Shown here: piece after piece, positions 1-15,669 of the stretch
How the letters are laid out: each line of letters begins with the position of its first letter
Numbering within the stretch: position 1 is the first letter of the stretch
Source: Candidatus Nitrososphaera evergladensis SR1
GTDB lineage: Archaea; Thermoproteota; Nitrososphaeria; Nitrososphaerales; Nitrososphaeraceae
DNA length: 64,000 nucleotides
Direction of reading: 5' to 3'
Assembly: GCF_000730285.1 (NCBI RefSeq)
Contig: NZ_CP007174.1
Span: forward strand, 1,550,001-1,614,000
Translations under genes and position numbers: made by a program
The notes under the pieces: model-generated
Databases searched by the model: none
Told to the model about the DNA's origin: nothing
Seen by the model: only the letters and a program-made list of their open reading frames with translations

Positions 1-359
1 ACAACCTTAAAACAATTCTGCGCAAAGGAAAGGTTTACTTTCATCCCATGCCGGGGGAGCCATTTGGGATATCTGTGGCAGAGGCTATGAGTTGTGGGCT
101 TATCCCCATCGTACCAAGTGTGGGAGGCCACAATGACTTTGTTCCGAAAAGATACAGATATGTATCTTTAGAAGATGCAGTAGGAAAGATTTCTTTCGCC
201 TTGAGTGCTTCCCAAGAAGACCGAACGTCGATTAGCAATTTAGTAACCAGATTTTCTGAAGCAAATTATGTGAAAAGCATACAAAGATTGGTCGCCAATG
301 TATTGCAAGGAATAAGGGCAAGTGACAATGTTGCCTATGCTGAAGACACTATTGCATGA
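1..359 (+). CDS. Glycosyltransferase family 4, C-terminal part (5' end outside window)
   Basis: The reading frame is open from base 3 to a TGA at 357, so only about 118 C-terminal residues are seen. They contain EPFGISVAEAMSCG, the E-x7-E nucleotide-sugar binding motif of GT-B fold family 4 transferases, followed by the usual glycine-rich step (VGGHNDFVP). Members transfer a sugar from an NDP-sugar to a glycan, lipid or protein at the cytoplasmic membrane. The substrate cannot be told from this fragment. A start at the internal ATG (48) would remove the strand before the motif, so the gene must begin upstream. Confidence 0.85.
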   Translation, partial: NLKTILRKGKVYFHPMPGEPFGISVAEAMSCGLIPIVPSVGGHNDFVPKRYRYVSLEDAVGKISFALSASQEDRTSISNLVTRFSEANYVKSIQRLVANVLQGIRASDNVAYAEDTIA

Positions 360-437
360 TTACTCTGTACGATATCCAAAAGTAGAATAGCAAGACAATT
401 TATTTTATACCAAGCAAGTATACATTCGCTCTAGTAA

Positions 438-850
438 CTATCTTCGCATGTGGGTGTCCTCCATATGACCAACCATGGTTTCACTTTTCCCTATCACTGA
501 CCTACAGTATGGGCATACAGATTCCCGCTGTGCTACAGAGCGTGACGATTCCAGCTCTGCCAGATCAATGTTGTGGCTGGGCATGTTACCAATTATGGTC
601 TTGAGAGTCACTATACCGATAACTGAACCATCCGAACTTATCACTGGCAGCCTTCGTATTTGCTTTGATTGCATGAGAGCTATTGCGTTTCTGACAGATG
701 CATCTTCACCTATCGTAACAAGTGGTGAGCTCATTATTTGGCCTATAGTAATCTTGTAAGGGCCGTGTCTTCTGGCAAAGCGACAAAATCTTGTTCTGCT
801 ACGTTTGCCACTCTTTTGACAAGACCGCTGGCTACTGTTTGCTGCGCCAT
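438..850 (-). pseudogene. CBS-domain protein with C-terminal zinc finger, frameshifted and probably internally deleted
   Basis: An ATG at 850 behind a GGTGG ribosome site opens a frame (MAQQTVASGLVKRVAN...LPEDTAL) that hits TAG after about 35 codons. In the next frame, from about 762, it continues as KITIGQIMSSPLVTIGED, a complete CBS motif (RRLPVISSDGSVIGIV), and ends in a C2H2-like finger (CPYCRS...HMEDTH). In related archaeal proteins two CBS repeats follow such an N-terminus. Here most of the first repeat is absent, so a deletion that also shifted the frame is likely (inference). CBS pairs bind adenine nucleotides; this copy is probably non-functional. Confidence 0.65.
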
Positions 851-1178
851 TTTACTCTCCACCTAAGGCGGAAACGGCATCAGCAATAGAGGGTAGACCC
901 AAATTTATTTTTTAAAATATAGTTAGCTTTTAAGACTGAAGATATGACAACATTATGATTATATGTTGCAGGAACAAGTGAATCCATCGCCTGCAACAGT
1001 CCGACGGCTTATCGCGTTTTCATCATTTTTTAATTCCAATAGTAGCATCTTCCTCACCATATCATGCGGTCTAACTTCTGCAGCATGCTTCCCATCGCTG
1101 CCTCAGATCTTTTCTTTTATACATATGTCTGACAGCCAGCTCTGCGTTATGGCCTCTACTACATAATAGAGGTTTACA

Positions 1179-1217
1179 ATTTATTGCTTACTCACCACCC
1201 GTGAGTAAGCAATAAAT
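1179..1217. repeat. Perfect 17-bp hairpin
   Basis: ATTTATTGCTTACTCAC at 1179-1195 is exactly complementary to 1201-1217, with the five-base loop CACCC. A weaker hairpin (CCTCTA/TAGAGG, 1153-1172) lies just before it. It sits between two broken genes and has no T-run directly after it, so a terminator, a mobile-element end or a small structured RNA are all possible. Confidence 0.6.
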
Positions 1218-1240
1218 GAATCGATTTTGATAATAAGGTC

Positions 1241-1386
1241 GTGAGGTCAAATGGAGTGAAAGTTCAGAAGGAAGTGCCACGGCCAAAATTTGAATGCACC
1301 GGGTGCCAAAAGGCTTTTAAGTTTCCTTGACTGTGGAAGAGCACAGGAAGCATGACCATACAGGCGGCAGACCAATAGCTGCCTGA
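1241..1386 (+). pseudogene. Small C2H2 zinc-finger protein with one-base frameshift
   Basis: From GTG 1241 (or GTG 1256) the frame reads KFECTGCQKAFKF and then stops at TGA. One base later it resumes as LTVEEHRKHDHTGG and ends at 1386. Restoring one T in the TTT run gives C-x2-C-x12-H-x4-H, a textbook C2H2 finger of about 45 residues. Either a recent pseudogene or a sequencing error in a homopolymer. Similar intact fingers occur at 4409-4537, so the family is real in this genome. Confidence 0.55.
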
Positions 1387-1402
1387 TTCTTATTTCTCTT
1401 TT

Positions 1403-1419
1403 TACCGATAATATCGGTA
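1403..1419. terminator. Palindrome with adjacent T-run
   Basis: TACCGAT-AAT-ATCGGTA is a perfect inverted repeat preceded by a pyrimidine/T-rich run. It lies between the C2H2 remnant and the convergent gene ending at 1507. It may end transcription of one of them; the structure is seen, the function inferred. Confidence 0.35.
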
Positions 1420-1506
1420 TGCCAATTTCTTTCTATGACAAGGAAAATCATGGATTTATGAATTGGAGAATAGAAATAAAGAAAAAGGTGGAATCGACAG
1501 CCGCTG

Positions 1507-1845
1507 CTATTTAGAAAGCAGCGGATCGCTCCTCATCTTTGGTGCCAAGATTTTGCCTGCGCAGACTGCCGCCATTGTTGCAGAAACAGCGAGTGCGATC
1601 CACAGGAGCAAGCTCATGGGGTCAGCACCGAACAGCAAAGGAACCCCGTTTCCAAACGCTCCTGGCTGAGTAGCAGCGTGCACCTTTTCTTGAGCCAGCC
1701 TCAGCATTTCAGTATATTCCGGAGGCAGGCTCGCGTCCGTGCTAGCTGCAAATGCCATACGCACAGTGGATAGGATGGTCGCCATTCCTGCCGTAGCAGC
1801 AGTGGCTATCTTGGCCAGCACGTCTTTTACTGGTCCACCAATCAT
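1507..1845 (-). CDS. Small membrane protein, function unknown
   Basis: A 112-residue ORF. Residues about 1-35 are Ala-rich and hydrophobic (a possible signal or first helix, ending AFAAS), the middle is polar with EYTEMLRLAQEKVHAATQ, and residues about 77-98 form a clear membrane helix (LLLWIALAVSATMAAVCAG), followed by a short positive tail. No recognised domain. A TA-rich promoter-like stretch lies just upstream. Probably a thaumarchaeal lineage protein. Confidence 0.6.
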   Translation of the reverse strand: MIGGPVKDVLAKIATAATAGMATILSTVRMAFAASTDASLPPEYTEMLRLAQEKVHAATQPGAFGNGVPLLFGADPMSLLLWIALAVSATMAAVCAGKILAPKMRSDPLLSK

Positions 1846-2003
1846 ATGACATCGCCTATATCTTCTAACTAGAAGAAAAATAAATTTTTTGCTTCATCAT
1901 AAATTTCTGTCGTCAGCAGCAACTTTGATCACTCAAAATCCATAAAAAATAAAAAATAAATATTAGTTACTCACATGTTGTGACTTGTTAGAGGTGCTGC
2001 AAA

Positions 2004-2162
2004 ATGGAGACACTTTGCAGAGGTTGCGGATTCGAACTCGAAGTTGTAGAATTATGTGAAGGATGCAGCGAGCCTGTGCGTTGGAGATGCAATGTATGTT
2101 TCAAAGAGAAAGATTCTCCTCATATGCACATGGCACCAGTGCAGTACGCGCTTGCAAGGTAG
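2004..2162 (+). CDS. 52-residue zinc-ribbon protein
   Basis: ATG 2004 is preceded by GAGGTG. The product has four CxxC-type knuckles in sequence (CRGCG, CEGCS, CNVC plus a terminal HMHM), the pattern of a small structural zinc protein. Such mini zinc ribbons are numerous in this genome type and are thought to act in protein or nucleic-acid contacts; no specific role can be assigned. Confidence 0.65.
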   Translation: METLCRGCGFELEVVELCEGCSEPVRWRCNVCFKEKDSPHMHMAPVQYALAR

Positions 2163-2214
2163 GTCACATCCTCACTTTTTATCAAAGAAAATTTTTTTAT
2201 TTTGAATCTCTTTA

Positions 2215-2963
2215 TCATAGAATAAAGGTCGATTGCATATGATGATTAAGACAAGAATATCGTATGCAATCACTGGCTGGCTGGCTGCCTCCAAGCGCGC
2301 CAGTCGCCGTTGCCTTCTTAACCTCTTGTGCTAGCAGTTCCATCTCTGGAACCCTATCCTTCTGTATCCTGCCAAACTCGTGCTCGCTAATGCTCCTGTC
2401 TCCAATCAACCGTAAGTAGATGAAATCAGTGGTAACTATTGGAGGCGCCTTTATGTCGTCGAGCTGGTTCCACACAAGACAGATGCCTTTTCGTTTCAAA
2501 AAGTCGTACAGCTCATCGTTGAACCATGATGGGTGCCTAATTTCTACAGCATATCTGTATTGTTTATTGAGAATATATATTTCCAAAGTTTTGCAAGGCT
2601 CTAAATCCTGTTTTGAAGCCGATGGATGACGGCAGCTGTATCAGGATGCAAAGAAGTTTCTCTCTTAGTAGGGCCACCGCTGAATAGAACGTCTCCAGCT
2701 GTTGATCGCAATTGCTCATCGCCTTTGCATGTGTTATTACCCTATGCATCTTGGCCGTGTACCTAAAGTCGACTGGAGTATTTTTCGCCCATCTCTTTAC
2801 TGCGAGGGGGATTTGGCATGGAGTAAAAGGTGCTGTCGATTTCAACAAAGTCAAAGATGCCTGCATAATGCTGCAGCCATTTTGTCTGTTCCAAGCACCT
2901 TGGATAAAGGGGGCCCTGCCACGCAACATAGCTCCAACCGCTGCAGCCCACATAATATTGCAC
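2215..2963 (-). pseudogene. DUF72 (YecE-like) protein broken by two frameshifts
   Basis: Three consecutive frames together spell a DUF72 protein: YYVGCSGWSYVAWQG and VEIDSTFYSMPNP (start 2963), then VKRWAKNTPVDFRYTAK, then YRYAVEIRHPSWF and TTDFIYLRLIGDRS. The first shift is an extra C in a C5 run (2806-2810), the second an extra G near 2580. The C-terminal NNHYAGF-type motif of the family is not recognisable. DUF72 has a TIM-barrel fold of uncertain enzymology. Two separate shifts plus a damaged end favour genuine decay, though homopolymer errors are possible. Confidence 0.75.
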
Positions 2964-3522
2964 AATCGTCTAAGAGCTTGCCACTTATTTTCCATTACTG
3001 CCAACTACAAAGTTCACGGTTTAGCCTGATGATGTGGAACCAAAGCAACTGGATATAATGCAACTACTTCTTGACTCTTTTCAAAAAGCACCCATTTCTG
3101 TTGCCCCCACTCGAAGTATAAAAATATGCTCACCTTCTATGACTATGTGAAGAAAATAAGAGAAGAGCAAAACAGCAAATCGTCGCAAAACTAGAATTTG
3201 GAGCTACAGAGTATAAGGAGTTGCAATTAGCATTAGTAATGAACTTCTTTGAATTCCGCAGACAAGTGATAAAATACGCACGAATTCCCTTCAAGAGGAT
3301 TTAGAGTGTCACAATGCCCGTTCATCTTGGAACCCTTTTGCCTTTGCATCTGCAGATTCTTTCGCTCCCACAAAATCTGATGTGCACAAGCGTTATTTTT
3401 TTGATACCATCCAATTATCCACAGACCGCACTTGACCAAACGACTTATGATAATAATGTACAACATGTTGTGAAAAAAGGAAGAGTACTTTGGGGCGAGC
3501 ATAGTGGAACTAACGGTTCAAG
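2964..3522. other. Stretch without a convincing gene
   Basis: Only short ORFs in unlikely frames are present. A TATA-like TATAAAAATA near 3118 precedes a possible 15-22 codon charged ORF that I could not support. No tRNA, repeat array or mobile-element feature was recognised. Confidence 0.4.
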
Positions 3523-3702
3523 CTATTCAGAATTCATTTCGCCTTTTGTCGATCCAACTTCGAACTCTTGAAACTCCTTGTCTTCCCTCGACTTTACTTT
3601 AGTGATTGGCCCTTGTGCCTCTTTCGTAGGATCTACTTTGTCCTCGTCGTCCGGCAACTACTGTTTCTTGTCCTTTTCATTGAGGTTTGGGCTTGTCCGC
3701 AT
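3523..3702 (-). pseudogene. Small charged ORF with an in-frame stop
   Basis: From ATG 3702 the frame reads 14 codons, a TAG at 3658-3660, then 44 uninterrupted codons very rich in Asp, Glu and Lys (LPDDEDKVDPTKEA...KSREDKEF) to a TAG at 3523. The composition looks like coding sequence, so this may be a decayed small acidic protein. It could also be chance. Confidence 0.35.
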
Positions 3703-3955
3703 ATTCTAATGTTACATTCAAAGATTGATGAGATTCTCTGGACTAAGAAAGGATGAACCAGGTTAGCCCGTGCGAGCCTCCTACAGGTATGTGAAAAGTA
3801 AAGAATTTTCAATAATAATCAGTACCTAAAGAATCGTGGGTACGCTTATTATCAGGTCATCAAAGGAAAGAATGGTCGGCCATGCTTCATAGAGGTTGTC
3901 GTTATGTGAGCCACAGCAACTTTTGGAACATGGCCAACACAGGCGTCTAATCCTT

Positions 3956-3997
3956 GACCCGCATCTGTATTCGTGGGGAATGATATGGGTGCGGGTC
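3956..3997. repeat. GC-rich inverted repeat
   Basis: GACCCGCA (3956-3963) pairs exactly with TGCGGGTC (3990-3997) across a 26-base loop. It lies in a stretch (3703-4163) that otherwise holds no clear protein gene. Confidence 0.4.
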
Positions 3998-4035
3998 GAG
4001 TTTTTAGTCTATTAAGAAAGCGGTGTTATTTAAGT

Positions 4036-4135
4036 ATGGGCCCGCACAGGGAGACGAGACGTGCAAACCGGCCCGAACGGAGGCGTGGGCGAGCGTGAGG
4101 AATACTACAACAAGCCTAATTCAGTATCTTTTTAT
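4036..4135 (+). ncRNA. Candidate structured non-coding RNA with terminator
   Basis: The stretch is strikingly GC-rich for its surroundings. GGGCC/GGCCC and GCAC/GTGC nest into one stem-loop (about 4038-4077). Downstream ATACT/AGTAT forms a second hairpin followed directly by TTTTT, a plausible terminator. A TATTTAAG box lies just before. A 20-codon Arg-rich ORF (4036-4098) overlaps but looks less convincing than the RNA structure. No known RNA family is recognised. Confidence 0.35.
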
Positions 4136-4163
4136 GTGTCCGCCTTCTAGGTCTTAGTTCCAC

Positions 4164-4379
4164 ATGGCCTTGGTCGAACAACAACGCAATAAGATAAGTT
4201 TGCTCGTATGCAATTCATGCTATTGGATGTCATCACTTTTGGACAGCTCAAAGGAGGTTCCCAACTGTCCTTCGTGCGGAACCACGTTAGAATCGCTGCC
4301 TGTTGAAAATAACGAAAGGTGCACCATAGAGGCAGCAGACACTAAGACAGGTTTGATCGTAGAGTTCCAAAGAGCATAA
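4164..4379 (+). CDS. Small zinc-ribbon protein
   Basis: 71 residues with two metal knuckles, CNSC (about 17-20) and CPSCG (about 35-39), then a short acidic beta-rich tail. The spacing of 14 residues fits a rubredoxin-like zinc ribbon. It begins 29 bases after the terminator-like T-run, so it may share that transcription signal region. Probably a nucleic-acid or protein adaptor; no specific function can be assigned. Confidence 0.65.
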   Translation: MALVEQQRNKISLLVCNSCYWMSSLLDSSKEVPNCPSCGTTLESLPVENNERCTIEAADTKTGLIVEFQRA

Positions 4380-4408
4380 GGCTTGAGCATTGGCCAATAT
4401 TATCATAA

Positions 4409-4537
4409 ATGACTGGCAAGCCTGTGCGATGTGGCGTGTGTGGTAAAGCCATGCCATCCAAGGCTGAGAGAGCCAGACATTTGGATCAAGTGCACAGGAT
4501 TACGATAGACGATGGTCCTAGCGATGCCCTCTCGTAG
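4409..4537 (+). CDS. 42-residue C2H2 zinc-finger protein
   Basis: The product (MTGKPVRCGVCGKAMPSK...) is essentially one finger, C-x2-C-x12-H-x4-H, with a short acidic tail. It lies 29 bases after the preceding zinc-ribbon gene and in the same direction, so the two may be cotranscribed. Single C2H2 proteins of this size are common in archaea and often proposed as DNA-binding regulators. Confidence 0.6.
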   Translation: MTGKPVRCGVCGKAMPSKAERARHLDQVHRITIDDGPSDALS

Positions 4538-4579
4538 GGGAGCGGAGGGCGACAAGCGTCGGCAGTTGGCAGAAAAGAA

Positions 4580-4948
4580 TTATTTTGTTGTTGACTGCGA
4601 TTCGGTGCCTGAGGCAGCAGATATCTTTTCATTGTATTCAGTAGCATAATGTTTCACCAACAGCAACGAGATTGCAATCTCTGCCGCTATGCCACTGATT
4701 ATAATAGCCAACGAAGCGGCATAGTTGTCAATTGAATTAGCGATTCCTCCCGTTAGCCCACCAATGACCAATCCCAGTCCAAAGTTGATTCCTGTTAGAA
4801 GCCAGAACTTTTGGATGCGCCATCCGGCGTAGATTGATAGAAACGGAATGAAAGAGTAGATCATCATCCGTTTAACATTTACTTGCTCCCGTGGAGGATC
4901 AAGAACCATGCTACTTACATTATAGTTGCTTCTTCTATATAAGTTCAC
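4580..4948 (-). CDS. Small multi-pass membrane protein, unknown
   Basis: 122 residues. A polar N-terminus is followed by hydrophobic segments at about 28-45 (MMIYSFIPFLSIYAGW), 50-70 (LLTGINFGLGLVIGGLTGG) and 78-98 (ASLAIIISGIAAEIAISLLLV), and the C-terminus is Ser/Thr-rich and polar. No catalytic motif is seen. Convergent with the C2H2 gene. Confidence 0.65.
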   Translation of the reverse strand: MNLYRRSNYNVSSMVLDPPREQVNVKRMMIYSFIPFLSIYAGWRIQKFWLLTGINFGLGLVIGGLTGGIANSIDNYAASLAIIISGIAAEIAISLLLVKHYATEYNEKISAASGTESQSTTK

Positions 4949-5031
4949 TAGAGGCGAGCGATAGGACGCAGGAGATGGCTCGAATCGGAGAGCCCCTTAG
5001 TACCATCTTGTAATCATAATCCCTCACAGAA

Positions 5032-5126
5032 GGAGGGGTAGTTGAGTCTGGGAAGAACGCTTGTCACATGGGCACATCCAGTGCCACGTGGACATGAGAG
5101 CGTGGGTTCAAATTCCATCCCCTCCG
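5032..5126 (+). tRNA. tRNA-like gene (possibly class II and intron-bearing), anticodon unresolved
   Basis: A 7-bp acceptor stem (GGAGGGG/CCCCTCC), D-arm GTT...AAC with an AGTCTGG-type loop, and a T-arm GTGGG-TTCAAAT-TCCAT are plain, with discriminator G at 5126. The 5' and 3' style resembles class II (Ser/Leu) archaeal tRNAs, and G73 favours Ser. The middle (5061-5101) carries an extra hairpin GGCAC-ATCCA-GTGCC and does not fold as a standard anticodon arm, so an intron or a degenerate gene is likely. A second copy lies at 55080. Confidence 0.5.
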
Positions 5127-5134
5127 CCTAGGAA

Positions 5135-5464
5135 TTAAGAGTGAGCGCCGAGGCTTCTGACGAGAGACCTTATCTCCGGTTCCCGTTTTCCGATTTCTCT
5201 CATTATTGCTTGAAACTCCATATCCATGGGAAACCTACCATGTCTGCAGCGAAAAATCAAGACGTATCCGTGTCTAATGTCATGGATGACATCGTTCTCT
5301 ATGAACCACATTTCAGCAGCTCTACTAGTTGAACCCAAAAATTCTTCATCTACCTTTTGCGCTTCCGGATGCTGCGGTTTTGCCACCTTCAAGTCACGTA
5401 TGGATTTGTCGAGATATTCATTTATGGAAGCTTTCTCGGCATTATCCAACTGGAGGTTACGCAT
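5135..5464 (-). CDS. Conserved-looking hypothetical protein
   Basis: 109 residues, soluble, rich in charged helices (MRNLQLDNAEKASINEYLDK...), ending eight bases from the tRNA-like gene on the opposite strand. A CRHGRFPMDMEF stretch stands out but no family is recognised. A signal antagonist or regulator are equally possible; function unknown. Confidence 0.5.
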   Translation of the reverse strand: MRNLQLDNAEKASINEYLDKSIRDLKVAKPQHPEAQKVDEEFLGSTSRAAEMWFIENDVIHDIRHGYVLIFRCRHGRFPMDMEFQAIMREIGKREPEIRSLVRSLGAHS

Positions 5465-5630
5465 TGTGTATGCAAACGTGTCAAGGTTTAATGGCGTTTC
5501 TCATCCTTCTTCAGGTAGCTGAATACCGGGAGCGATGGACGAGCGGATAGGCAACCCGTTGTACTCGGCTTGTCAAACTGGCGCATTTACTCTATTTCAC
5601 TTCAAAGGATTCAAAAAAAAGAAATTGGGG

Positions 5631-5798
5631 CTATGTCGTCGGTTGTGCTTCGAGCTTTATCTTCGATATCTTCTTCCTGCTGCTCATGCGATGAGTCCGT
5701 ACTTTTCTACCACAGTCTGGACAGCGGATGGTTCCTAATGGTCGTCGTTCTCTACAGGTACTACAAAACGTGCTGGTCTCATAGATGGATTTTCCCAT
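5631..5798 (-). CDS. 55-residue zinc-ribbon protein
   Basis: ATG 5798 opens a frame with CSTC (about 12-15) and CPDCG (about 26-30), then a strongly basic tail (KVRTHRMSSRKKISKIK). The metal knuckles and basic tail point to nucleic-acid binding (inference). It is part of the run of tiny zinc proteins in the first 6 kb. Confidence 0.6.
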   Translation of the reverse strand: MGKSIYETSTFCSTCRERRPLGTIRCPDCGRKVRTHRMSSRKKISKIKLEAQPTT

Positions 5799-6077
5799 TC
5801 TCCCCGATTCTCTCCCAATTCAGGCGAGCTGCTATCATTAATCAGTCCTATAGTGCTGATATTCTAGAACTCTATACCTGATTAAGAACTAGAAGACATT
5901 TAACATATTATTAAACTATGATAAAGCTAGGCCGCCTAATGATTGCTAGGTTGAAATGAGGGAGACAAACGATTTCAACATAGCGGAAATTGTTAGAATT
6001 CTTGTGAAACATTGTATACTAATTAGCTAACTTGACAACTGTCGATGTCTTTTCTTTAAAGAAAATGATTCTTGTTT

Positions 6078-6224
6078 ATGGAGATTTCCAGCCATAGGGA
6101 TTCGCAGAAGAGCAGGCATGAATTGCTGGAAGAGATAGAGAGATTGAAGGAGAAACTGAGAGCAAAGGAAAAGGAGATTGCGGTTCTTAAAAAACGCATT
6201 GCAATCTACAAAAGTTTGAAGTGA
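6078..6224 (+). CDS. 48-residue coiled-coil protein
   Basis: Almost the whole product is one heptad-patterned helix (HELLEEIERLKEKLRAKEKE, then IAVLKKRIAIYKSLK). No other domain. Such free coiled coils may dimerise with a partner; nothing nearby shows which. The neighbouring minus-strand gene at 6298 points towards it. Confidence 0.5.
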   Translation: MEISSHRDSQKSRHELLEEIERLKEKLRAKEKEIAVLKKRIAIYKSLK

Positions 6225-6297
6225 GATGGCCAGAACAGAGGGCGTTTGGGATGGCTCTTGGCAAAAGTGGCACACCTGCCATACCTGCCATGGCAGG

Positions 6298-6456
6298 CTA
6301 GGGCTTCAGCCTGCCTTTATCCCTCAAGAGATCATCTCTGAGGATGGCCAGTGTATGCCTCAAAATAGCTGCCGAATGCGTGTCGGACAGGCCATATTGC
6401 TTCTTTACGTATCTGCAAAGTCGGTAGTCATCATACTTTGTAAGGTCTATAGCCAC
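6298..6456 (-). CDS. 52-residue leaderless protein of the integrated element
   Basis: GTG 6456 lies about 27 bases downstream of a TTAAATAT box, so the transcript is probably leaderless. The product (MAIDLTKYDDYRLCRYVKKQYG...HSAAILRHTLAILRDDLL) is helical and basic, like small DNA-binding proteins of archaeal viruses, but no family is recognised. It shares its promoter sequence almost base for base with the replication operon at 8265, so the two are likely co-regulated. Confidence 0.55.
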   Translation of the reverse strand: MAIDLTKYDDYRLCRYVKKQYGLSDTHSAAILRHTLAILRDDLLRDKGRLKP

Positions 6457-6474
6457 GATTCTTCGTAATAAAAA

Positions 6475-6494
6475 ATGATATTTAAGGCTAGTAC
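6475..6494 (-). promoter_or_regulatory. Element-type promoter, copy 1
   Basis: Read on the minus strand this is GTACTAGCC-TTAAATATCAT: a BRE-like GC step and TATA box about 27 bases before the GTG at 6456. It matches 19 of 20 bases with 8287-8306. Confidence 0.55.
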
Positions 6495-6506
6495 CTGGGG
6501 ATTTAC

Positions 6507-6825
6507 TGTCACCAGTGTACCCACTGGATGCTTAGGATACTAGATCTAACCTATATGCATTATAGAAGTATAATGATAGTATAGAGGGGAGAGGATTGTG
6601 CCAGTGTATCCTAAGCACCCACTGGTGACAGTGGTGACGGCAGACAAGGGAGATTCTATCAATGACTGTTTATTTCGTTAGCTGTACCCAGTGTCACCAG
6701 TGAAGTGGCATAGGGAGTGGTACTATACCGTGTATTGTATAAAAATAAATAATAAATAAAAATTATAATAAATAGGGTAAGTAGCTATCCCTACCTATGC
6801 CATTCCAGTGGTGACACTGGTGACA
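6507..6825. other. Candidate replication origin: paired inverted repeats around AT-rich DNA
   Basis: The core TGTCACCAGTG occurs at 6507-6517 and 6692-6702 and, inverted, at 6620-6630 and 6815-6825, with partial extra copies (CAGTGGTGAC) beside it. The first pair is extended by GCTTAGGATAC (6530-6540 and its inverse near 6605-6615), the second by GTGGCATAGG-like sequence (6705-6714 and its inverse near 6793-6803). The second pair encloses an almost pure A/T tract (about 6735-6775). Iteron-like repeats plus an unwinding tract beside a replication gene are typical of plasmid and virus origins; origin function is inferred. Confidence 0.6.
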
Positions 6826-7742
6826 TCTAAGGAAATAGACAACCCTTCGTAGAACCGGGCACGTCCTCCGTTCACTCTAGCTTGTCTTCTCTTGAAGCCC
6901 ATAGGATTTAGGACGTTGCCAACTCTATCCTCATCAATAGGAGCCAGATTGTTCTTGGCACACCACTTGTTTAGTTCATCCACAAAAGTTGTAGTCTGCA
7001 CTCTCCTACCAAAACCTACTGTACAGCAAGCAGCAATGAACTTGTTAATGTTCTCTTTATGATCTTCCATGTAACTATGACTGATCTTCTTCGATTCCTT
7101 CTCCTCCGGTAGAGTTTCGCCGAAGCACTGCAATACTTTAAGCAGCTCGGCTTTCGATACCTCAACAACTCCAAAATTAGGCATCATCATACCGCATTTG
7201 TTACGTCCGTATGCGGCTTCATACTTATCCCACTCGACTGTGAATGAAGGTAAGACGGGGACGTAGTGCCCATTGCCATATAACGTTGCTGTCTTTCCTA
7301 GTTCGATAGTAGGAATACCATTTGGAAACTCTTCTCGCTTGTACTTCAAAAGCCTCCCGCCTCCACGAGCCAATATTTCTGAGCTCTTCTTTAATTTCGT
7401 CAAGAGGTCCTCAGAAAGTGGCAGTTTTGGCAACTCCCGCCTGTCCATAGACAGTAACACATGATTCCCCGGCGATCCCGTTGCAATGGCAAGGTTAGGA
7501 TAGAATCCCTTGGCATATCTTGAGCCTTTGACGAACGGGTCCGGATCATAATCTCTAGTCTGCCAATCTCTATCCACAGGAAGCAATCCTCTTTTACTCT
7601 TAGACATGGATTTGTCTAAAGGGGATCGTAGAGGAATGATTGCCAGTTCATACTTGCCCCAAAGTTCTTCCGCCTTGGCGTGGAACTCCGCCTCATCCAC
7701 GTTCACTCCCTTGATTTTTCTTTTATCAAGCTCCTCATTCAT
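6795..7742 (-). CDS. PrimPol/AEP-like replication protein of an integrated element, catalytic residues altered
   Basis: 315 residues. Residues about 75-185 follow the N-terminal layout of bifunctional primase-polymerases: NLAIATGSPGNHVLLSMD, then ARGGGRLLKYK, then TATLYGNGHYVPVLPS. The usual D-h-D of motif I reads S-M-D and the motif II His reads Leu, so catalysis may be lost. The C-terminal third (TFVDELNKWCAKNN...VGNVLNPMGFKRR...GGRARFYEGL) resembles the winged helix that follows primases or D5-type helicases. No helicase domain. The inverted-repeat array overlaps its 3' end, suggesting it binds there. Last gene of a three-gene ATGA-coupled operon. Confidence 0.65.
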   Translation of the reverse strand: MNEELDKRKIKGVNVDEAEFHAKAEELWGKYELAIIPLRSPLDKSMSKSKRGLLPVDRDWQTRDYDPDPFVKGSRYAKGFYPNLAIATGSPGNHVLLSMDRRELPKLPLSEDLLTKLKKSSEILARGGGRLLKYKREEFPNGIPTIELGKTATLYGNGHYVPVLPSFTVEWDKYEAAYGRNKCGMMMPNFGVVEVSKAELLKVLQCFGETLPEEKESKKISHSYMEDHKENINKFIAACCTVGFGRRVQTTTFVDELNKWCAKNNLAPIDEDRVGNVLNPMGFKRRQARVNGGRARFYEGLSISLDVTSVTTGMA

Positions 7743-8086
7743 ACAGGACCATACTCCTTAATTCTGCATTCGACCATCGGAACACCGCACTCGTCTTCGC
7801 TCCATCTTGTAGAGTCTACTATCAATCCTACGTCTTGGCAGACTTGGTAGAAGTCAGCTCTGGGATCATCAGAGTTGTACATGACTGCCTTCAGCTTGTT
7901 GTATCTAACGGTGATTTTTGTCCATCTACTGTAGAATACTATTTTCTTGCCGCCTCGGCAAGCCACGACTATGCCATACCATTGTATCTCTGTTTGGCCC
8001 TTGCTGTCGGATTTACCTTTTATATCATTGTCTGTACTTTTTATGCTGTAGTCAGGTCCGTTGGATGTGGTCTCTTGGCTGGTCAC
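7739..8086 (-). CDS. Hypothetical protein of the replication operon
   Basis: 115 residues. A polar Ser/Thr/Lys N-terminus (about 1-33) is followed by a beta-rich core (WYGIVVACRGGKKIVFYSR...ITVRYNKLKAVMYNSDD) and an acidic end. Four-base ATGA overlaps join it to both neighbours, so translation is coupled to the PrimPol-like protein. A nucleic-acid-binding accessory such as an SSB-like fold is possible but not shown. Confidence 0.6.
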   Translation of the reverse strand: MTSQETTSNGPDYSIKSTDNDIKGKSDSKGQTEIQWYGIVVACRGGKKIVFYSRWTKITVRYNKLKAVMYNSDDPRADFYQVCQDVGLIVDSTRWSEDECGVPMVECRIKEYGPV

Positions 8087-8265
8087 CGAGTGACTGCCTC
8101 CTTTTTATTAAATTCGGCAAGTCCCGCCATCCCGTCTACGTTTGTCTTCACATTGGTCCTGCACCTAGGGCAGGATGTCCAAAAAGGGGACCTGCCCTTG
8201 TATAGCCATTCATAGGCGCACTTACCGCAGGTAAGGCGCTTTAGCGTAGTTTGTTCACTATACAT
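8083..8265 (-). CDS. Zinc-ribbon protein heading the replication operon
   Basis: 60 residues with CGKC (about 13-16) and CPRC (about 32-35) knuckles, then a short tail. ATG 8265 sits about 31 bases from the centre of a TTAAATAT box, so the leader is very short. First gene of the operon with 7739-8086 and 6795-7742. Small zinc ribbons often accompany replication genes in archaeal elements; a DNA-binding role is inferred. Confidence 0.65.
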   Translation of the reverse strand: MYSEQTTLKRLTCGKCAYEWLYKGRSPFWTSCPRCRTNVKTNVDGMAGLAEFNKKEAVTR

Positions 8266-8286
8266 TCTACATAATAAAAAAGAAAT

Positions 8287-8306
8287 ATGATATTTAAGGG
8301 TAGTAC
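8287..8306 (-). promoter_or_regulatory. Element-type promoter, copy 2
   Basis: On the minus strand GTACTACCC-TTAAATATCAT, 19 of 20 bases identical to 6475-6494. It drives the replication operon. The conserved bases extend beyond a TATA box on the upstream side (GTACTA), which suggests an operator or strong BRE. Confidence 0.55.
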
Positions 8307-8542
8307 TGTTTATATAACACCATTATAAGGTTTGCTACCTAAAGATTGGTAGATACCGATAAGGTGGTTACAATACGGCGACTGTCTATGCTTTCATCCA
8401 AAACTAGCCTTTAATATCATAACACACCCACAGAAGTTGGCAAGCCAGAAAAAGGAGCGAACCATGCAAGCGAGCTAGCCATTAGGATGGGTGAACCAAC
8501 TTAGTAAGCGAAAACATCTTGGAGGGACCCTTCCCTCCCATT
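8307..8542. other. Intergenic stretch with a GC hairpin
   Basis: No gene seen. GGAGGGA-CCCT-TCCCTCC at 8521-8538 is a seven-bp hairpin immediately past the stop of the gene at 8543, a possible terminator or mRNA end. A small GGTAG/CTACC symmetry lies near 8327-8350. Confidence 0.4.
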
Positions 8543-8716
8543 TTACAACTTTTGCAAAGCGTTCAGCACAGAATTAATCAAAAGAACCTGATCGGTCATA
8601 ATTGCCCGTTTCTTTAGAATCCTGCTCTTCAGCGTCTTGCGATAGCCGTCAGAATAAGCTTGTATGTTACCTTTCTTCAGGTCCTTCAAAAACTGCTCCT
8701 CCTTAGGGCTTAACAC
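8543..8716 (-). CDS. 57-residue leaderless basic protein
   Basis: GTG 8716 lies about 27 bases after TTTTATATACTA, indicating a leaderless mRNA. The product (MLSPKEEQFLKDLKKGN...YRKTLKSRILKKRA) is all helical and basic, and SPKE-EQFLKDL resembles the start of small archaeal DNA-binding or sigma-like helix-turn-helix proteins. No family is assigned. It diverges from the membrane-protein gene at 8827. Confidence 0.5.
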   Translation of the reverse strand: MLSPKEEQFLKDLKKGNIQAYSDGYRKTLKSRILKKRAIMTDQVLLINSVLNALQKL

Positions 8717-8826
8717 GATATATCGTAATTTCTTGATTTAGTATATAAAAGTACCTATCAATAGCTGATTTACGTAAGCTGGTTAGCTGAGATCATATTA
8801 TATACTAGATTACGGTATTCTGTAAT

Positions 8827-9039
8827 ATGAATAACGCAACAAACAACGCAAACAAAATAACCGCAAGCAAAGTCGTCGCAGCCGTCGCAACTGGAGCCCT
8901 GATTTTTGGAACAGCCTACGGGGCAGCCACACTCCACACGCCGTTGGGTGCACCGATCCTGACAGCTTCAGTATTCTCATTGGGGCTGCTAATGGGAACG
9001 ACTTTCAAGGGCAAGCGCAAGGCTGAGGTGACTGCTTAA
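8827..9039 (+). CDS. Small double-membrane-helix protein, candidate virion or envelope protein
   Basis: 70 residues. A polar Asn-rich start is followed by two hydrophobic helices, about 16-36 (VVAAVATGALIFGTAYGA) and 43-59 (PILTASVFSLGLLMGTTF), and a basic end (KGKRK). This size and layout matches major capsid proteins of spindle-shaped archaeal viruses, though sequence identity cannot be judged. TTATATACT about 25 bases upstream suggests a leaderless transcript. First of three plus-strand genes packed to 9432. Confidence 0.6.
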   Translation: MNNATNNANKITASKVVAAVATGALIFGTAYGAATLHTPLGAPILTASVFSLGLLMGTTFKGKRKAEVTA

Positions 9040-9040
9040 C

Positions 9041-9202
9041 ATGGCCGCCACCCTCCAACACCGGGAGCATGGTATCGTTGAAATGGGGTGCGTGCTGGCT
9101 GAGGTCCACAGGTCCCCGTTCGGCCGAGACTTGCTCCACAATGCCATGCACCAGATGGGCCTAAAGTGCGATATGTGTGATGAGCATGAGGGCTCAGCCT
9201 AG
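9041..9202 (+). CDS. 53-residue His/Cys-containing protein
   Basis: ATG 9041 begins two bases after the preceding stop, so it belongs to the same transcript. The product has several His residues and a C-terminal CDMCDEH that could bind metal. No family. Codon use (GC-rich) matches the neighbouring small membrane proteins. Function unknown. Confidence 0.5.
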   Translation: MAATLQHREHGIVEMGCVLAEVHRSPFGRDLLHNAMHQMGLKCDMCDEHEGSA

Positions 9203-9213
9203 CCCCACTTTTT

Positions 9214-9432
9214 ATGGTGATAGCAATGGCAAAAATAATTGGTCTCGGTAAATTCATTGTGGCAGGCGTCTGCGTCGCAGTATGGCTTAACGGTTTCGCC
9301 AGCCTCTACCAATCATGGTCAGACGCCGGCATCAGCGCTGCAATGTGGCTAGGCGGGGCATCAGTCTGTCTGTATTGGGCTATGCGTGATCGCAGGAAGG
9401 CAAAGGCGAGCTCACAACAACCCCTTCCATAG
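9214..9432 (+). CDS. Second small double-membrane-helix protein
   Basis: 72 residues. Hydrophobic segments at about 8-30 (GLGKFIVAGVCVAVWLNGFA) and 38-57 (GISAAMWLGGASVCLYWAM), separated by a short SLYQSWSD turn, then a basic-polar tail (RDRRKAKASSQQ). Layout parallels the gene at 8827. Its end overlaps the convergent 1200-residue gene by 21 bases. An envelope or capsid role is inferred from size, topology and context only. Confidence 0.6.
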   Translation: MVIAMAKIIGLGKFIVAGVCVAVWLNGFASLYQSWSDAGISAAMWLGGASVCLYWAMRDRRKAKASSQQPLP

Positions 9433-12400
9433 ACCTTTCTTCTTTCCTTTTGATTTTCCAGCCTTTACCTGTTTCTGACCGCCTTCCTGAATATCAAAGG
9501 CACCGGCTCCGAACAGAATATTTCTTACGCCTCTTTGCTTAAACGAACTGACTCCGGCTCCCTTGCTCCCTTGACTGGCCGCCACACCGCCCGGCATGAA
9601 TGTTGGAATTGCGATAGGTGGCACCTTCCGACTAGTGGGTGGACTTCTCGGAGGCCTGCCCGTGGTTGTATCAAGCCTGAAGTTTAGATCTGTAATAGTC
9701 CCCTGATCTAAGCGGGAACCTGTTGAGGTGATGTTTCTAGGAGTTGTGAAGATATCCGTCTTCGCTCCACTTCTCGACCCGGTGCCGTGGGAAAATGGAT
9801 TGGCAACATCCAGCCCTCCTCTCTGTGGCTTAATGTTGAATGGATTTGATGTTTCAGTCAGACTGCCAGGGTTAACTAGGCTCTCTGTCCTTCTACTTTC
9901 TCTACTCTTTAGCCCCAAGCTCTCACCCGGATAGCGAACATACTCGGTTGTTTCATTTGTGACAGTTCTTTTCTTATTGACCCTTTCTACACCAGTAGCT
10001 CCTTTGAATCCTAGCAGGCCGGCGTTTGCGTAACCTGCCGCATTACCGCCTAATCCTAGACTCCTACCCGCCTGTTTTGCAGACTGCTCGGCATCAAATA
10101 TCGTGTTTTTCACACTCGCAAAGCTCGGAGCTTCCTTGGCACTACTAACCTCAATCAACTTACCGCCATTTGTCTTTGGAAGTTCTGCCGATGGTGTTCT
10201 GGCCGGTTCAACATCAAACTTGAATGGTGTGCTCGGCTTCTTTGTCCTTGCCTCATCACTAACAGCCTTGGATCTTTTTGTATCCTCTTTGACAAACTTG
10301 CTGACCTTATTAAGATCAAACTCCACATCAGTGGCCACTTGTTCCTTCATCAGTTTTATCGCCTTGCCGCCTTTGGTTATGAAATAGTTTCCGGATAACG
10401 GGTCCAGTCCTTCAGAATCTCTTGCAAGGTCATAGCCGGCTAGTCTGGAAAGTCTGGCACTAGGCAAAGCTGGATTTTGCTCCAAGTTATAAACATCTGT
10501 GGTACTGCTTGCTATCAGGTTAGAGGACTTGGGAGCGTTCTGGACCTTTGGGAACATGACATCCGCCGGCGCTCCTCCTTTCGCCGGATTAATTCTTCCC
10601 TTTCCGCCTACCTTATAGAAAAATTCGCTTGCGTGTTGCAGTGCGCCTAATGCGTCGGCCCTCTTGATGCCAAAGGTTGTTGTTGTGCTGGATATTTCAC
10701 TTTGAACACCCGTTATTTTTTCCTCAATGCCAGCTATCTTTTGCAAGAGGTCGGATTTTTGGCTAGTCAAGTCAGCGAGCTCTTTCGAGCTTGCAGCATC
10801 GCCGCTATTAATGCCAAACATATCAGCAGGGTTCGATTTACTGGCAGTTGAGATCTGGTTGTCGATATCAACGACTTGTGATTGCAATCTTTCCTTTTGG
10901 TCCCTAAGGTCATCTGCCTTGGAATACAATGGCTCTAACTTTTTGGATAGTTTCTGAGACTTCATGTTAAGAGTCGGGTCGTTTTTGAAAGCATAGTTTT
11001 CAATCATCTCTTGAACCTTGGGACTATGGAAGTATGGGTTCACGCCTTGTGCCTTGATCTCCTCAGCACTTGGAGCCTTTGTTTGATTCTTTAACCACTC
11101 GGCAGTGTTTTGAACTGATGTGACAGATTTGAGGTCTTGACCGACAAGATCTGCCTTTGCTGCAAGCGGCAGTGGAGATGGATTCTGGATGATGGCTGTG
11201 TTACTCCTAGGTGAAATAATCCCAATCGGTGTACCCTCTTGCGTCACGACCTCTCTAGTTGGATTGATGGTTAACTTCTTGACACTTATGCTCTCTGGAA
11301 TATTGATGGAAGCAATAGGTGTCTCGTTCTGCATGATGCCGAGATCTATTTTCTTACCGCCTACCAATGGAATCTTTACGTTGCGACTGGCTACAGCAAC
11401 GTTCGCAAAGCGTGTAGGCTGAAGTGGCACGTCAACGACCTCACCGGTTGCCGGAATCTTGCGCTGTTCGATGGGCCTAACAGAAACGTCGCCCTCGACA
11501 CCCGCTCTTTTTGCCGCAGCCTGCGCTTCCTTCTCAACAGATCGGGTAAGTTTGAGACCGGATGCAACCTTGCTTACATCCTTTACAATCTTTACAGGAT
11601 TGCCAAATGTGGCAATGTCTGCAATGGTACCGCCAATAAACTCAACAGGCCGTTCTTGCAGTGCCTTGTATTGTTGCGCTATGGCTTCATCCCCACTGCC
11701 GAACGACAGGCCAGTTGCACTTTCGACAGACTGTTTCATGCCACTCTTTTCCAATTCCTTCACACCATAGGCAGCACCGAGCCCCACTATGCTGCCTACG
11801 GGGATGTTTTGTGCGTCGATAATTTTTTTGTCCTGCGCTGCTTTAGACGATTCGGCATAAAATGTATCGCTGCCAAAGGTCCTGCCTATACTTTCAGTAA
11901 GTGTACTGAACGCACCAAGGTCCGTGGCTGACTTGATTGCTTGTGATGCTGCGGCACTATTATTGCGAGTCCGTTCCGCTTGCGCTTTAAATCCTAGTGC
12001 ATCCTCCGCCTTGCTGATCAGATTGCCACCTAAACTCACCAGTCCTGCACCCGCAGCGCCGAATCCCTCGACGCCAAAGCGCCACACCTGCTCGGCAGCA
12101 TCTAGATTTAATTTCGCATCTTTGTATGGATCCGGAATCTCAAAGGTGCCATCATCACGAACTGCCACTGTCTTACCACCGCTAGTGAAAGTTGTGAACT
12201 TGGCTGTAGTCTTACCGGAGGAATCTTTAGTCTCTACAAGCCCTCCAAAGCCTTTGGCCTGCATGCCGCTAATCCATGCGTTATAATCTGCTTCTGCCTT
12301 TTCGTTGGCCTTGCGAGCAGCGGTGTTTTCACGTTGAGCCCCCATAAATTCAGCGTAGAACTTTTTGCTCTCCGCCACATCTACGAAGAGTGGGCTGATG

Positions 12401-13014
12401 TCACCTGTAGGAGACATTTCCACCTGTCCTGCATACTTTACCTTCCCTCCCTTTTCCTGTTCACGCACAAACTGAAGGATGTGGTCGCCCAGTGCGAGCC
12501 GGCTCACATTAACCCTTTGTGATGCCCCGTTTTGTCCTGATTGCGCTAAGGATTGACGCTGTGCGGCAAGATTCTGCGATTGGTATGCGGCATAGTTTTT
12601 TTCCAACGCTTTGTTTTCGGCCGCCTTGTCGTAGATTGGAATGCTCATAGTGCGCTTTGGTCCCTCTTCGTACCTGCTGCCGCCGCCTAATTTGCCGAAG
12701 CCGGGAGTGATGGCGACGGTATACCTATCCTCGACAGCCTGCCGGGCTTCTGGCAGAAAGTCGGAGAGATTCTGCGTTTGCCCACTAGATAGCGCCTGTT
12801 CCTGAGCTCTTCGCTGTGCTTCCAAGAATGTCTGCGTGGCCAGCGTACGTTCTGCTTCTGCCGAGACGCCACCGGTGTTTGCAGCCGGTGCCGATGCTTG
12901 CGCTGCTAGATCGGCACTGGTCAAGGTCTGACTTTGCCCTGTCTGAATAGCTTTTTTTTGCAATTCAGCATTAGCTAACTGATACTTTTTGTAATTGTCT
13001 TCCATGCTAGTCAT
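9412..13014 (-). CDS. 1200-residue element protein, structural-protein-like, unknown family
   Basis: By far the largest gene of the element. The N-terminal 200 residues are Ala/Gln/Ser-rich and helical. About 305-360 is small-residue-rich and weakly hydrophobic (VEGFGAAGAGLVSLGGNL). About 690-770 is a coiled coil (KLEPLYSKADDLRDQKERLQ and onwards). The C-terminal 250 residues are Pro/Thr/Ser/Arg-rich and low in complexity, ending in a basic tail (KAGKSKGKKKGLWKGLL). No catalytic motif is recognised. Such composition is typical of minor virion, tail or injection proteins and of secreted scaffold proteins. Starts two bases after the RHH gene stop, so the two are probably cotranscribed. Confidence 0.65.
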   Translation of the reverse strand: MTSMEDNYKKYQLANAELQKKAIQTGQSQTLTSADLAAQASAPAANTGGVSAEAERTLATQTFLEAQRRAQEQALSSGQTQNLSDFLPEARQAVEDRYTVAITPGFGKLGGGSRYEEGPKRTMSIPIYDKAAENKALEKNYAAYQSQNLAAQRQSLAQSGQNGASQRVNVSRLALGDHILQFVREQEKGGKVKYAGQVEMSPTGDISPLFVDVAESKKFYAEFMGAQRENTAARKANEKAEADYNAWISGMQAKGFGGLVETKDSSGKTTAKFTTFTSGGKTVAVRDDGTFEIPDPYKDAKLNLDAAEQVWRFGVEGFGAAGAGLVSLGGNLISKAEDALGFKAQAERTRNNSAAASQAIKSATDLGAFSTLTESIGRTFGSDTFYAESSKAAQDKKIIDAQNIPVGSIVGLGAAYGVKELEKSGMKQSVESATGLSFGSGDEAIAQQYKALQERPVEFIGGTIADIATFGNPVKIVKDVSKVASGLKLTRSVEKEAQAAAKRAGVEGDVSVRPIEQRKIPATGEVVDVPLQPTRFANVAVASRNVKIPLVGGKKIDLGIMQNETPIASINIPESISVKKLTINPTREVVTQEGTPIGIISPRSNTAIIQNPSPLPLAAKADLVGQDLKSVTSVQNTAEWLKNQTKAPSAEEIKAQGVNPYFHSPKVQEMIENYAFKNDPTLNMKSQKLSKKLEPLYSKADDLRDQKERLQSQVVDIDNQISTASKSNPADMFGINSGDAASSKELADLTSQKSDLLQKIAGIEEKITGVQSEISSTTTTFGIKRADALGALQHASEFFYKVGGKGRINPAKGGAPADVMFPKVQNAPKSSNLIASSTTDVYNLEQNPALPSARLSRLAGYDLARDSEGLDPLSGNYFITKGGKAIKLMKEQVATDVEFDLNKVSKFVKEDTKRSKAVSDEARTKKPSTPFKFDVEPARTPSAELPKTNGGKLIEVSSAKEAPSFASVKNTIFDAEQSAKQAGRSLGLGGNAAGYANAGLLGFKGATGVERVNKKRTVTNETTEYVRYPGESLGLKSRESRRTESLVNPGSLTETSNPFNIKPQRGGLDVANPFSHGTGSRSGAKTDIFTTPRNITSTGSRLDQGTITDLNFRLDTTTGRPPRSPPTSRKVPPIAIPTFMPGGVAASQGSKGAGVSSFKQRGVRNILFGAGAFDIQEGGQKQVKAGKSKGKKKGLWKGLL

Positions 13015-13016
13015 GG

Positions 13017-13148
13017 CTAGCTCCTGCCCTCCCTTATTCCGGCCAGTCTAGCTAGCAAACAATCCCAATTCTCGTACGGAAGGGCTTTTGCTCTAAGGGC
13101 CTCCTTGATCTCAGGACGGCATGATATGGTAGTAACTTTCTGACTCAT
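13017..13148 (-). CDS. 43-residue ribbon-helix-helix type regulator
   Basis: MSQKVTTISCRPEIKEALRA followed by YENWDCLLARLAGI matches the CopG/Arc-like layout: a short beta strand (VTTISC), helix, turn, helix. Dimers of such proteins bind DNA through the paired strands. It stands two bases before the 1200-residue gene and probably controls that operon. A stretch of TATA-like A/T sequence lies upstream (13150-13175). Confidence 0.6.
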   Translation of the reverse strand: MSQKVTTISCRPEIKEALRAKALPYENWDCLLARLAGIREGRS

Positions 13149-13264
13149 TACAATAAAAAATAATTAAACATAATTGGCAAGAAAGGAGGAAAGGCTAGCC
13201 TTCAAAGAATCTTCTACTAGTCGTTGCCGCCAATAAGTTCAAGAATCATGAAACACCATAACGG

Positions 13265-13372
13265 ATGATGGAGCCGTGGAAGAAGTATGCCTTTGCTTCA
13301 ATCAGCGTGGCGATAGCAATGGTGGTCCTCTTCGTTCTAGGTGTTATTTTCGTGCACAGTGGGAATGGCTAG
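13265..13372 (+). CDS. 35-residue single-pass membrane peptide
   Basis: MMEPWKKYAFASISVAIAMV continues into a long hydrophobic helix (VLFVLGVIFV) and a short HSGNG tail. Nothing else is present. A charged N-terminus and one helix is a common form of small virus or plasmid membrane proteins. An overlapping 64-codon frame (GTG 13276) has no coding character. Confidence 0.5.
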   Translation: MMEPWKKYAFASISVAIAMVVLFVLGVIFVHSGNG

Positions 13373-14011
13373 CCGTATATGCCGATGAAAGAATGCAAGA
13401 ATCAAAGAACGTTAATGCGCATTTAGCCCTATTATTAATAGAGGATGAACTTATGATCATGAAAAGTTGAATATTACCGTTACATTCTTTCACGCTTATA
13501 AGAATAGAAGTTTTTTGCAAGATCTGGTGCAGCTATACAGGTTATCAAATACGTCTGAGTGCAAACATCGGGTAGCAAAATGGCAGGCAGAGACTGCGTA
13601 AAATGGTAAGCGTAAGGGCCTCAAATGCTTATTAAAGTAAATAGGGATTCAAAAAGCAGATTTTATGTCAGCTCTTTTCATACCGAACCTTCATGTGTTC
13701 CGTAAGACTATAACACATTCTGGAGATCCTGCAAGCCATATAGAAGACTACTGATAAGAACCGTGAACGTCTAGTTGTATAAGGAGCGCCCACGCCCTTA
13801 TTACATGAATGGCAAATCCAAAACGACAATTTTCAACGACTCTTTTTTTATCAAACTGATGAGGGTTGCATATAACGCTTAACGCCTCAAAAAGAATATG
13901 TGGCATCAGCTGTAGATAGTATGTGGCTGAGGATGGTCCTGCTGCCTACGTATCGGCCCTATCTTGACCCTGCATATTAGCTGGCCATCGTCAGTCCAAA
14001 ACCAATCTGGC
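13373..14011. other. Long intergenic stretch in the element
   Basis: No convincing gene on either strand. An interrupted palindrome at 13779-13801 (ATAAGG-a-GCG-CCCA-CGC-CCTTAT) could be a terminator or protein-binding site. The rest is A/T-rich with short homopolymers and no recognised RNA gene. Confidence 0.4.
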
Positions 14012-15145: not shown

Positions 15146-15385
15146 GTTTGCTGTGCTCATAGTAATATAAAAAATGAAATCGGCAGAATGACAGAAGAGA
15201 AAGATTACAATGGGAATCGTTTGTGCTTGTGCGTTCTACACCCTATTATTATTAGAGATGACCAAGATGATAAGAAAAAAGAGTTACAAACCAGTGTGCC
15301 ACAAAGTATCATCTTTGAAAAGTTTCTTCTCAATCTCTTGTGCAGCTATATTTATCTACGAGTATTCTATAGAATAAGCTTCACT

Positions 15386-15583: not shown

Positions 15584-15669
15584 TCGCTCGAGCTATTTGC
15601 GAAGTCAACCTCAGGAGCCCTAGCTAGACTTGCCTCCTGCCACGCCAGCTTGTTGTATTCGCACTAATC

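Follow-up and report, generated by a model that had tools for sequence, protein, structure and literature searches.

What is a dense cluster of inverted repeats doing at the 3' end of an archaeal gene, and which protein, if any, would read it? The window analyzed here (the whole stretch of DNA, 64,000 nucleotides) carries such a cluster at positions 6507-6825, running into the end of a gene for a 315-aa protein. An earlier note on this DNA had suggested a possible replication origin, and that suggestion gains support from arrays of like layout behind related primase genes and from the mapped origin of the plasmid pRN1. From comparison of sequences, we consider it likely that the array serves an integrated element as its replication origin (replicator) and that the proposed initiator is the adjacent 315-aa protein, acting through its C-terminal winged-helix-like domain.

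Two side-by-side modules of inverted 9-bp units

The 11-mer TGTCACCAGTG occurs in four exact copies within 319 bp (6507+, 6620-, 6692+, and 6815-), which form two head-to-head pairs as the earlier note had described. The pairs had also been called nested, but pair A (6507-6639) and pair B (6683-6825) are adjacent; the arms alternate in orientation (+ - + -), and the array therefore consists of two modules, A and B, lying side by side (Table 1). The outermost arms of the array also match each other at 91%.

Going inward, every arm has two tandem 9-bp units (consensus TGTCACCAG), a few nucleotides, and then a GCWTAGG inner box. One unit per arm is often degenerate (TGTACCCAG or TGTACCCAC). The extensions private to each pair, reported previously together with an A/T tract in the second pair, are present, as is the tract; they correspond to the inner boxes, which match at 12 of 12 positions within module A (by eye) and partially between modules. 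GCWTAGG is common to the extensions of both pairs, and a longer design containing the 11-mer is found in every arm. The right arm of module B extends into the terminal codons of the gene for the 315-aa protein, whose stop is at 6795.

Table 1. Coordinates of the array and of surrounding features in the window
Feature	Position	Strand	Description
Module A left arm	6507-6540	+	Units 6507-6515 TGTCACCAG and 6516-6524 TGTACCCAC; inner box GCTTAGGATAC 6530-6540
Module A core	6541-6605		65 nt, 66% A+T
Module A right arm	6606-6639	-	Inner box 6606-6616; units TGTCACCAG 6622-6630 and CGTCACCAC 6631-6639
Module B left arm	6683-6714	+	Units TGTACCCAG 6683-6691 and TGTCACCAG 6692-6700; inner box GCATAGG 6708-6714
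Module B core	6723-6785		63 nt, 82% A+T; contains A/T tract of about 40 nt; candidate unwinding element
Module B right arm	6794-6825	-	Inner box 6794-6800; units TGTCACCAC 6808-6816 and TGTCACCAG 6817-6825
315-aa candidate initiator gene	6795-7742	-	C-terminal (226-307) D5/primase-type winged-helix-like domain
Two small genes	7739-8265	-	Just upstream of the 315-aa gene, codirectional; 115 aa and 60 aa (zinc-ribbon-like)
Block common to E1 and E2	8827-13014		DNA 90-92% identical; genes for small hydrophobic proteins and a 1200-aa protein
Element E1, part in window	1-16807		Extends about 11.4 kb to the left of the window; each end carries the 9-bp direct repeat CGCACACAA

The repeats are rare in this genome. 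A word common genome-wide would have counted against an origin in the eyes of the earlier note; we found six exact copies of TGTCACCAGTG in the single-contig genome of 2,954,373 bases (about 1.4 expected in random sequence), four of them in the array and the other two in nearly identical duplicates of a single coding sequence. With at most one mismatch, the 64-kb window holds seven sites against 0.87 expected, a number reached in none of 100 shuffles. The array contains 24 inverted 9-mer pairs, and the highest number among 212 other window groups across the same 24 kb is six; this count imposes a G+C requirement and replaces an earlier one that, without it, was confounded by A/T-rich matches. 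A detector of tandem plus inverted units, described below, scored the array at 11.4 with period 9 and 50 other windows at no more than 8.6. The array as a whole is absent elsewhere in the genome, and a search for similar DNA recovered the array, including the match to its own inverted copy, and beyond that nothing but short matches to A/T tracts in two genomes.

Beside the array, at 6465-6500, lies a promoter-like stretch with a near-identical copy at about 8267-8300, upstream of the replicase operon (by eye). Both read ATGATATTTAAGGSTAGTAC on the + strand, i.e., they would be promoters on the - strand.

The adjacent 315-aa protein is a candidate initiator

The C terminus of the 315-aa protein (residues 226-307) matches a profile built from the C termini of 60 relatives (E = 1e-6; 2,000 shuffles all fell above E = 1). 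Comparison with the relatives' C-terminal domain by hhalign gave E = 1.4e-5, and residues 229-304 resemble phage primase C termini (phrog_1156, E = 4e-6). This domain is shared with related PrimPol-D5 replicases.

The N terminus behaves differently. It scores 18.6 bits against Prim-Pol, below the cut-off of 22.8, aligns weakly in pairwise comparison with the replicase of a second element of this genome, E2 (E = 0.002), and has no match to a profile of 36 relatives; we therefore do not call the protein a PrimPol. The array does abut the 3' end of this gene, as the earlier note had it, but the gene's description there as PrimPol-like was put too firmly, the matches being below threshold and, with the relatives' profile, absent. 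In the weak pairwise alignment, the DxD motif reads SxD in the 315-aa protein and a conserved His, invariant in 12 relatives, is missing; we take these residues to be catalytic. Two scans found no helicase domain in the 315-aa protein, in nine other proteins of the element covered by one scan, or in seven others covered by the second. Searches of 61 genomes, viral contigs, and phages returned no relatives of the 315-aa protein, and plasmids gave one partial match at 23% identity. Comparison with solved structures yielded nothing useful, and the AlphaFold2 model (mean pLDDT of 33.9) was not usable.

The array lies in an integrated element

Four relatives (L180, L181, L182, and L183) keep the flanking genes and join window position -11440 directly to about +16800. 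In L180 the match stops at -11438 and resumes at 16795, and the other three show the same pattern; the array therefore sits in an insertion of about 28.2 kb, here designated E1. A tyrosine integrase with an intact frame (PF00589, E = 3e-7) is encoded just inside the left end of E1, and the gene flanking E1 on the left ends in a Cys-containing coding stretch. E1 is probably the element NitEve-E2 of PMC6563490: the available text of that paper describes, as we see for E1, a short att site, insertion at a zinc-finger gene's 3' end, and an empty site in a relative, with an att of 13 bp versus the nine exact bases found for E1. In a term search of the same text, iterons are named only in the reference list, "origin of replication" does not occur, and no origin is given for NitEve-E2 (PMC6563490).

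Among 101 genomes, the 1200-aa protein of E1 has, besides itself, one relative, which is encoded in the same genome (1478528-1482127, 87%) and belongs to E2. The 4-kb block that the two elements share (8839-12858 in the window; E2 side, 1477938-1481971) is a recent module exchange, since the replication modules of E1 and E2 show no relationship in sequence. E2 encodes a separate integrase and a PrimPol-D5 replicase of 780 aa (PF09250, E = 1.7e-12; D5_N, E = 3.7e-11). Right behind the replicase gene is an array of GTACGGG type that faces inward around an A/T-rich core and has a best period of 11; its syntenic spot and layout are those of the E1 array, and its sequence is different. The 60-aa zinc-ribbon-like protein of E1 is related to a 78-aa protein of E2. 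No viral contig was found with the 1200-aa protein of E1 or with the single E2 primase as the query.

A third element of this genome (L130, about 1.02-1.03 Mb) encodes a 308-aa PrimPol and has a large inverted array of TGACGG units upstream, not downstream, of that gene. Inside E1, at 5031-5128, is a tRNA-Met-like stretch, apparently intron-bearing and not called by ARAGORN; it aligns over about 131 bases, at 83% identity, with the tRNA-Met region at 55042-55176.

Has E1 outlived its origin? The element may have decayed, losing its helicase and catalytic motifs, and may survive only as an integrated island in which the array is a former origin. The 315-aa protein, with no recognized helicase domain, an altered DxD motif and no His in the weak alignment, and next to no relatives, is what such decay could leave behind. 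Set against this are the good preservation of the repeats, the frame, and the inverted symmetry, as well as the intact integrase frame and the repeats at both ends of E1. We regard a remnant as possible, if somewhat doubtful, and take the array in what follows as a replication origin that may still work.

Arrays of the same layout recur behind primase genes

To place the array among its counterparts, loci of E2-type replicases were gathered in two batches, from which L079 (without 3' flank) and L146 (short) were dropped. In the first batch, 10 of 33 relatives had the highest inverted-repeat score of the whole locus at the primase 3' end; in the second, 8 of 35 did, two of these weakly. Arrays inspected in some of the loci consist of tandem 9-bp units inverted around A/T cores. 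We then scored all loci with a detector that looks for two tandem units plus an inverted partner at periods of 6 to 14. Scores of at least 9 were reached by 35 of 69 primase 3' regions (29 with a best period of 9) and by 20 of the 966 windows elsewhere (period 9 in 5 of them); scores of at least 12 were reached by 12 of 69 3' regions, all with period 9, versus 2 of 966 other windows. With E1 and E2 left out, arrays were detected at 33 of 67 primase 3' ends (28 with period 9), compared with 4 of 66 primase 5' ends and 13 of 496 3' ends among other genes with products of at least 150 aa (Fisher p = 2e-24, the loci being partly nonindependent by descent). Among the 45 loci without prior sequence inspection, 19 score at least 9, and 17 of these have period 9. 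Of all 69 loci, 34 stay below 9, i.e., have no such array at the primase 3' end; in two elements the array is displaced, upstream of the PrimPol gene in L130 and 2.1 kb downstream in L139.

Loci on viral contigs with distant relatives of the replicase gave a similar result: 31 of 62 reach 9 at the 3' end, versus 3 of 414 control windows, and the layout is therefore general for this replicase class (several of the contigs look closely related; 3 of 65 loci were dropped because they had no match, a stop too near the end, or a 3' flank already seen). The periods here are 9 (12 loci), 12 (9 loci), 10 (5 loci), 11 (3 loci), and 8 (2 loci), and the dominance of period 9 appears as an archaeal feature in this sample. 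On the viral contigs L184-L248, the phage relatives have their arrays downstream of the same gene, and the period, which ranges from 8 to 12, seems to go with the lineage.

Similarity between iterons rises with similarity between C-terminal domains (Mantel r = 0.28, p = 0.0002, N = 33; shared descent uncorrected). Such a correlation would be expected if the C-terminal domain reads the units, and common descent alone could also give it. A further inverted box is located 11-15 nt inward of the units, with matches of 0.48-0.62, compared with an expectation of about 0.3 when loci are mismatched (N = 29; cores shorter than 60 nt excluded, E1 entered as its two modules). The two boxes of one element match each other but not those of other elements, and they are thus element specific like the GCWTAGG of E1.

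The mapped origin of pRN1 contains tandem 9-bp units

The experimentally mapped counterpart is the origin of pRN1, where a 100-bp region behind orf904 is necessary and, with the replication operon, sufficient (PMC4234260). As described in the available text of the two papers on it, this origin was published as a stem-loop, its authors considered pRN1 to be without iteron structure, and gel shifts and footprints with the replicase gave no specific binding (PMC4234260, PMC3869888). Origins of the pRN1 family are reported there to lie directly behind the replicase gene and to have two inverted arms, as in E1, with a sequence that is unconserved between plasmids (PMC4234260, PMC3869888).

We find that the 21-nt arms of pRN1, set around a 58-nt core, are composed of two tandem 9-bp units, TTATGTCCA and TAGTGTCCA, with a period-9 score of 14.1 versus a control maximum of 11.8. 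The arms of pHEN7 (GTCACCACT and GTCACAACT, nearly the unit of E1) score 13.2 versus 7.2 for the control. Those of pRN2 (GGACCGATA and GGACAGGAA) score 12.6, and so does the highest control, which is probably this very array, encountered a second time where the circular record begins. In pDL10 and pSSVx no tandem 9-mer array was detected and matching arms are visible by eye; pIT3 and pORA1 score below their own control maxima. In the first 300 bases after the pIT3 replicase gene (L151), many copies of TGTCCATYG are seen by eye, all in one direction and at a spacing of 9-11 bp. Codirectional copies make a stem among them impossible; could this be an iteron origin without a stem?

The E1 array shares with pRN1 its position directly 3' of the gene and cores of about 60 nt (65 and 63 nt, versus 58 nt in pRN1) between long inverted arms. 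Where pRN1-type systems combine PrimPol, SF3 helicase, and a C-terminal winged helix, the candidate initiator of E1 has the C-terminal domain, a PrimPol match below the cut-off, and no recognized helicase domain; E1 also differs from pRN1 in having two tandem modules.

The stem-loop proposed for pRN1 raises the question of what is recognized. If a cruciform were the working unit, read by its shape, the array would still be an origin and the tandem units would be incidental or secondary. The array does fold strongly as a single strand (z = -9.0 versus shuffles). For pRN1, a stem mutant was rescued when symmetry was restored, which favors a structural role (PMC4234260, PMC3869888, as far as their available text goes). 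The inner boxes, which match within and not across elements, and the matching arms of pDL10 and pSSVx without tandem 9-mers point the same way. In arms with two unlike units, matches to the stem partner (47) outnumber those to the cross partner (21; E1, L116, and L131 left out); however, 21 of 30 loci are ties, and the excess comes from few loci. Period 9, moreover, recurs in unrelated sequences, many arms are imperfect as stems yet keep the unit (L054, L065, and L119), and the codirectional pIT3 copies run counter to a stem. On balance, we think recognition by shape unlikely and favor an origin read through its tandem units.

The sites could alternatively regulate neighboring genes, as operators, or segregate the element, as a centromere, without being an origin. 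In favor of such a role, the left arm adjoins the promoter-like stretch at 6465-6500 (- strand), a close copy of which lies upstream of the replicase operon. Autoregulatory operators are normally found at the 5' end of a gene, and the recurrent place of these arrays is the primase 3' end rather than the 5' end (33 of 67 versus 4 of 66). The pRN1 counterpart is, in addition, required for replication (PMC4234260, available text), and a purely regulatory or segregational role strikes us as improbable. A transcription terminator or chance palindromes, for which the location at a gene 3' end and the ability to fold could be cited, are very hard to reconcile with 63- to 65-nt cores, two modules, tandem units, and a score far above control windows, and the terminator of pRN1 is separate from its origin and dispensable (PMC4234260, available text).

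A proposed mechanism and other iteron origins

We propose that several molecules of the 315-aa protein would attach to the tandem units on either side of the core through the C-terminal winged-helix-like domain, and that related PrimPol-D5 replicases would use the same domain at their own arrays. The bound initiator would bend and melt the A/T-rich core and load the replisome; the doubled module may provide two start sites or cooperative loading. Because no helicase domain was found in the 315-aa protein and its primase motifs are apparently lost, melting and priming would come from recruited proteins of the host or of a helper element. Without a recognized helicase domain and with a weak PrimPol signal, E1 may not replicate by itself.

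More broadly, and tentatively, replicase and origin in archaeal PrimPol elements may form one cassette, in which inward-facing tandem 9-bp iterons and an element-specific inner box surround an A/T core directly downstream of the replicase gene and the iteron follows the C-terminal domain of the replicase. The "stem-loop" of pRN1 would then be an iteron origin, and E1 a doubled-origin variant with a helicase-stripped initiator; we put this generalization at a little short of an even chance. For origin recognition by PrimPol replicases of archaeal plasmids, the authors of the pRN1 studies drew "not yet identified sequence motifs" (PMC4234260, PMC3869888, available text). A recurring 9-bp unit whose letters change from element to element, behind dozens of related genes, is a concrete candidate for such a sequence. 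The layout of the array could permit automatic origin finding in uncultured elements and, possibly, replicating vectors for ammonia-oxidizing archaea. A literature search, with subscription papers mostly outside it, found no earlier account of arrays like these from Nitrososphaera and none that links 9-bp iterons to this group of replicases; no experimental work on E1 was found either.

An archaeal chromosomal origin of the ORB type, recognized by Orc1/Cdc6, was considered and rejected: the array is 27 kb from the gene at 34104-35267, which we take from its sequence to be Orc1/Cdc6-like, and no such repeats lie beside that gene.

Origins of the P4 and SaPI type have several short direct repeats per arm and an A/T-rich unwinding stretch, and the E1 array has both, since each of its four arms contains a tandem pair of 9-bp units and its cores are A/T-rich (Table 1). 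SaPI iterons lie on either side of an AT-rich stretch. Bacteria already provide examples of iteron origins downstream of primase-helicase genes, in SaPI and SCCmec elements (PMC7581432). As in E1, the iterons of SaPI Rep and SCCmec Cch2 lie directly downstream of the initiator gene, and theirs are bound by the C-terminal domain of the initiator; unlike E1, these systems are bacterial, their initiator is a helicase, and their iterons are shorter (AAGTG in Cch2), according to the text available (PMC7581432). The alpha protein of phage P4, as described in PMC4234260, binds origin repeats with a winged-helix domain before unwinding and priming; in contrast to the E1 initiator, it combines a Toprim-type primase and a helicase in one protein. 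A further parallel is RepA of the PLE satellite, an iteron-binding initiator predicted to lack helicase and primase in a satellite that needs other machinery; the helicase for E1 would likewise be supplied from elsewhere (PMC7145576, available text). RepA belongs to the RepA_N family, is bacterial, and is unrelated to the 315-aa protein (PMC7145576).

The regions downstream of D5-type primase genes were also scored in haloarchaeal plasmids and several phages. Those of pHTUR06, Halomarina, Haloquadratum PL47, and an Oceanotoga phage gave no array that exceeded the controls, and array scores were low in IME_EF3 and Halarchaeum (scored without controls). Javan465 has an array of period 8, and a Pediococcus plasmid has one of period 9.
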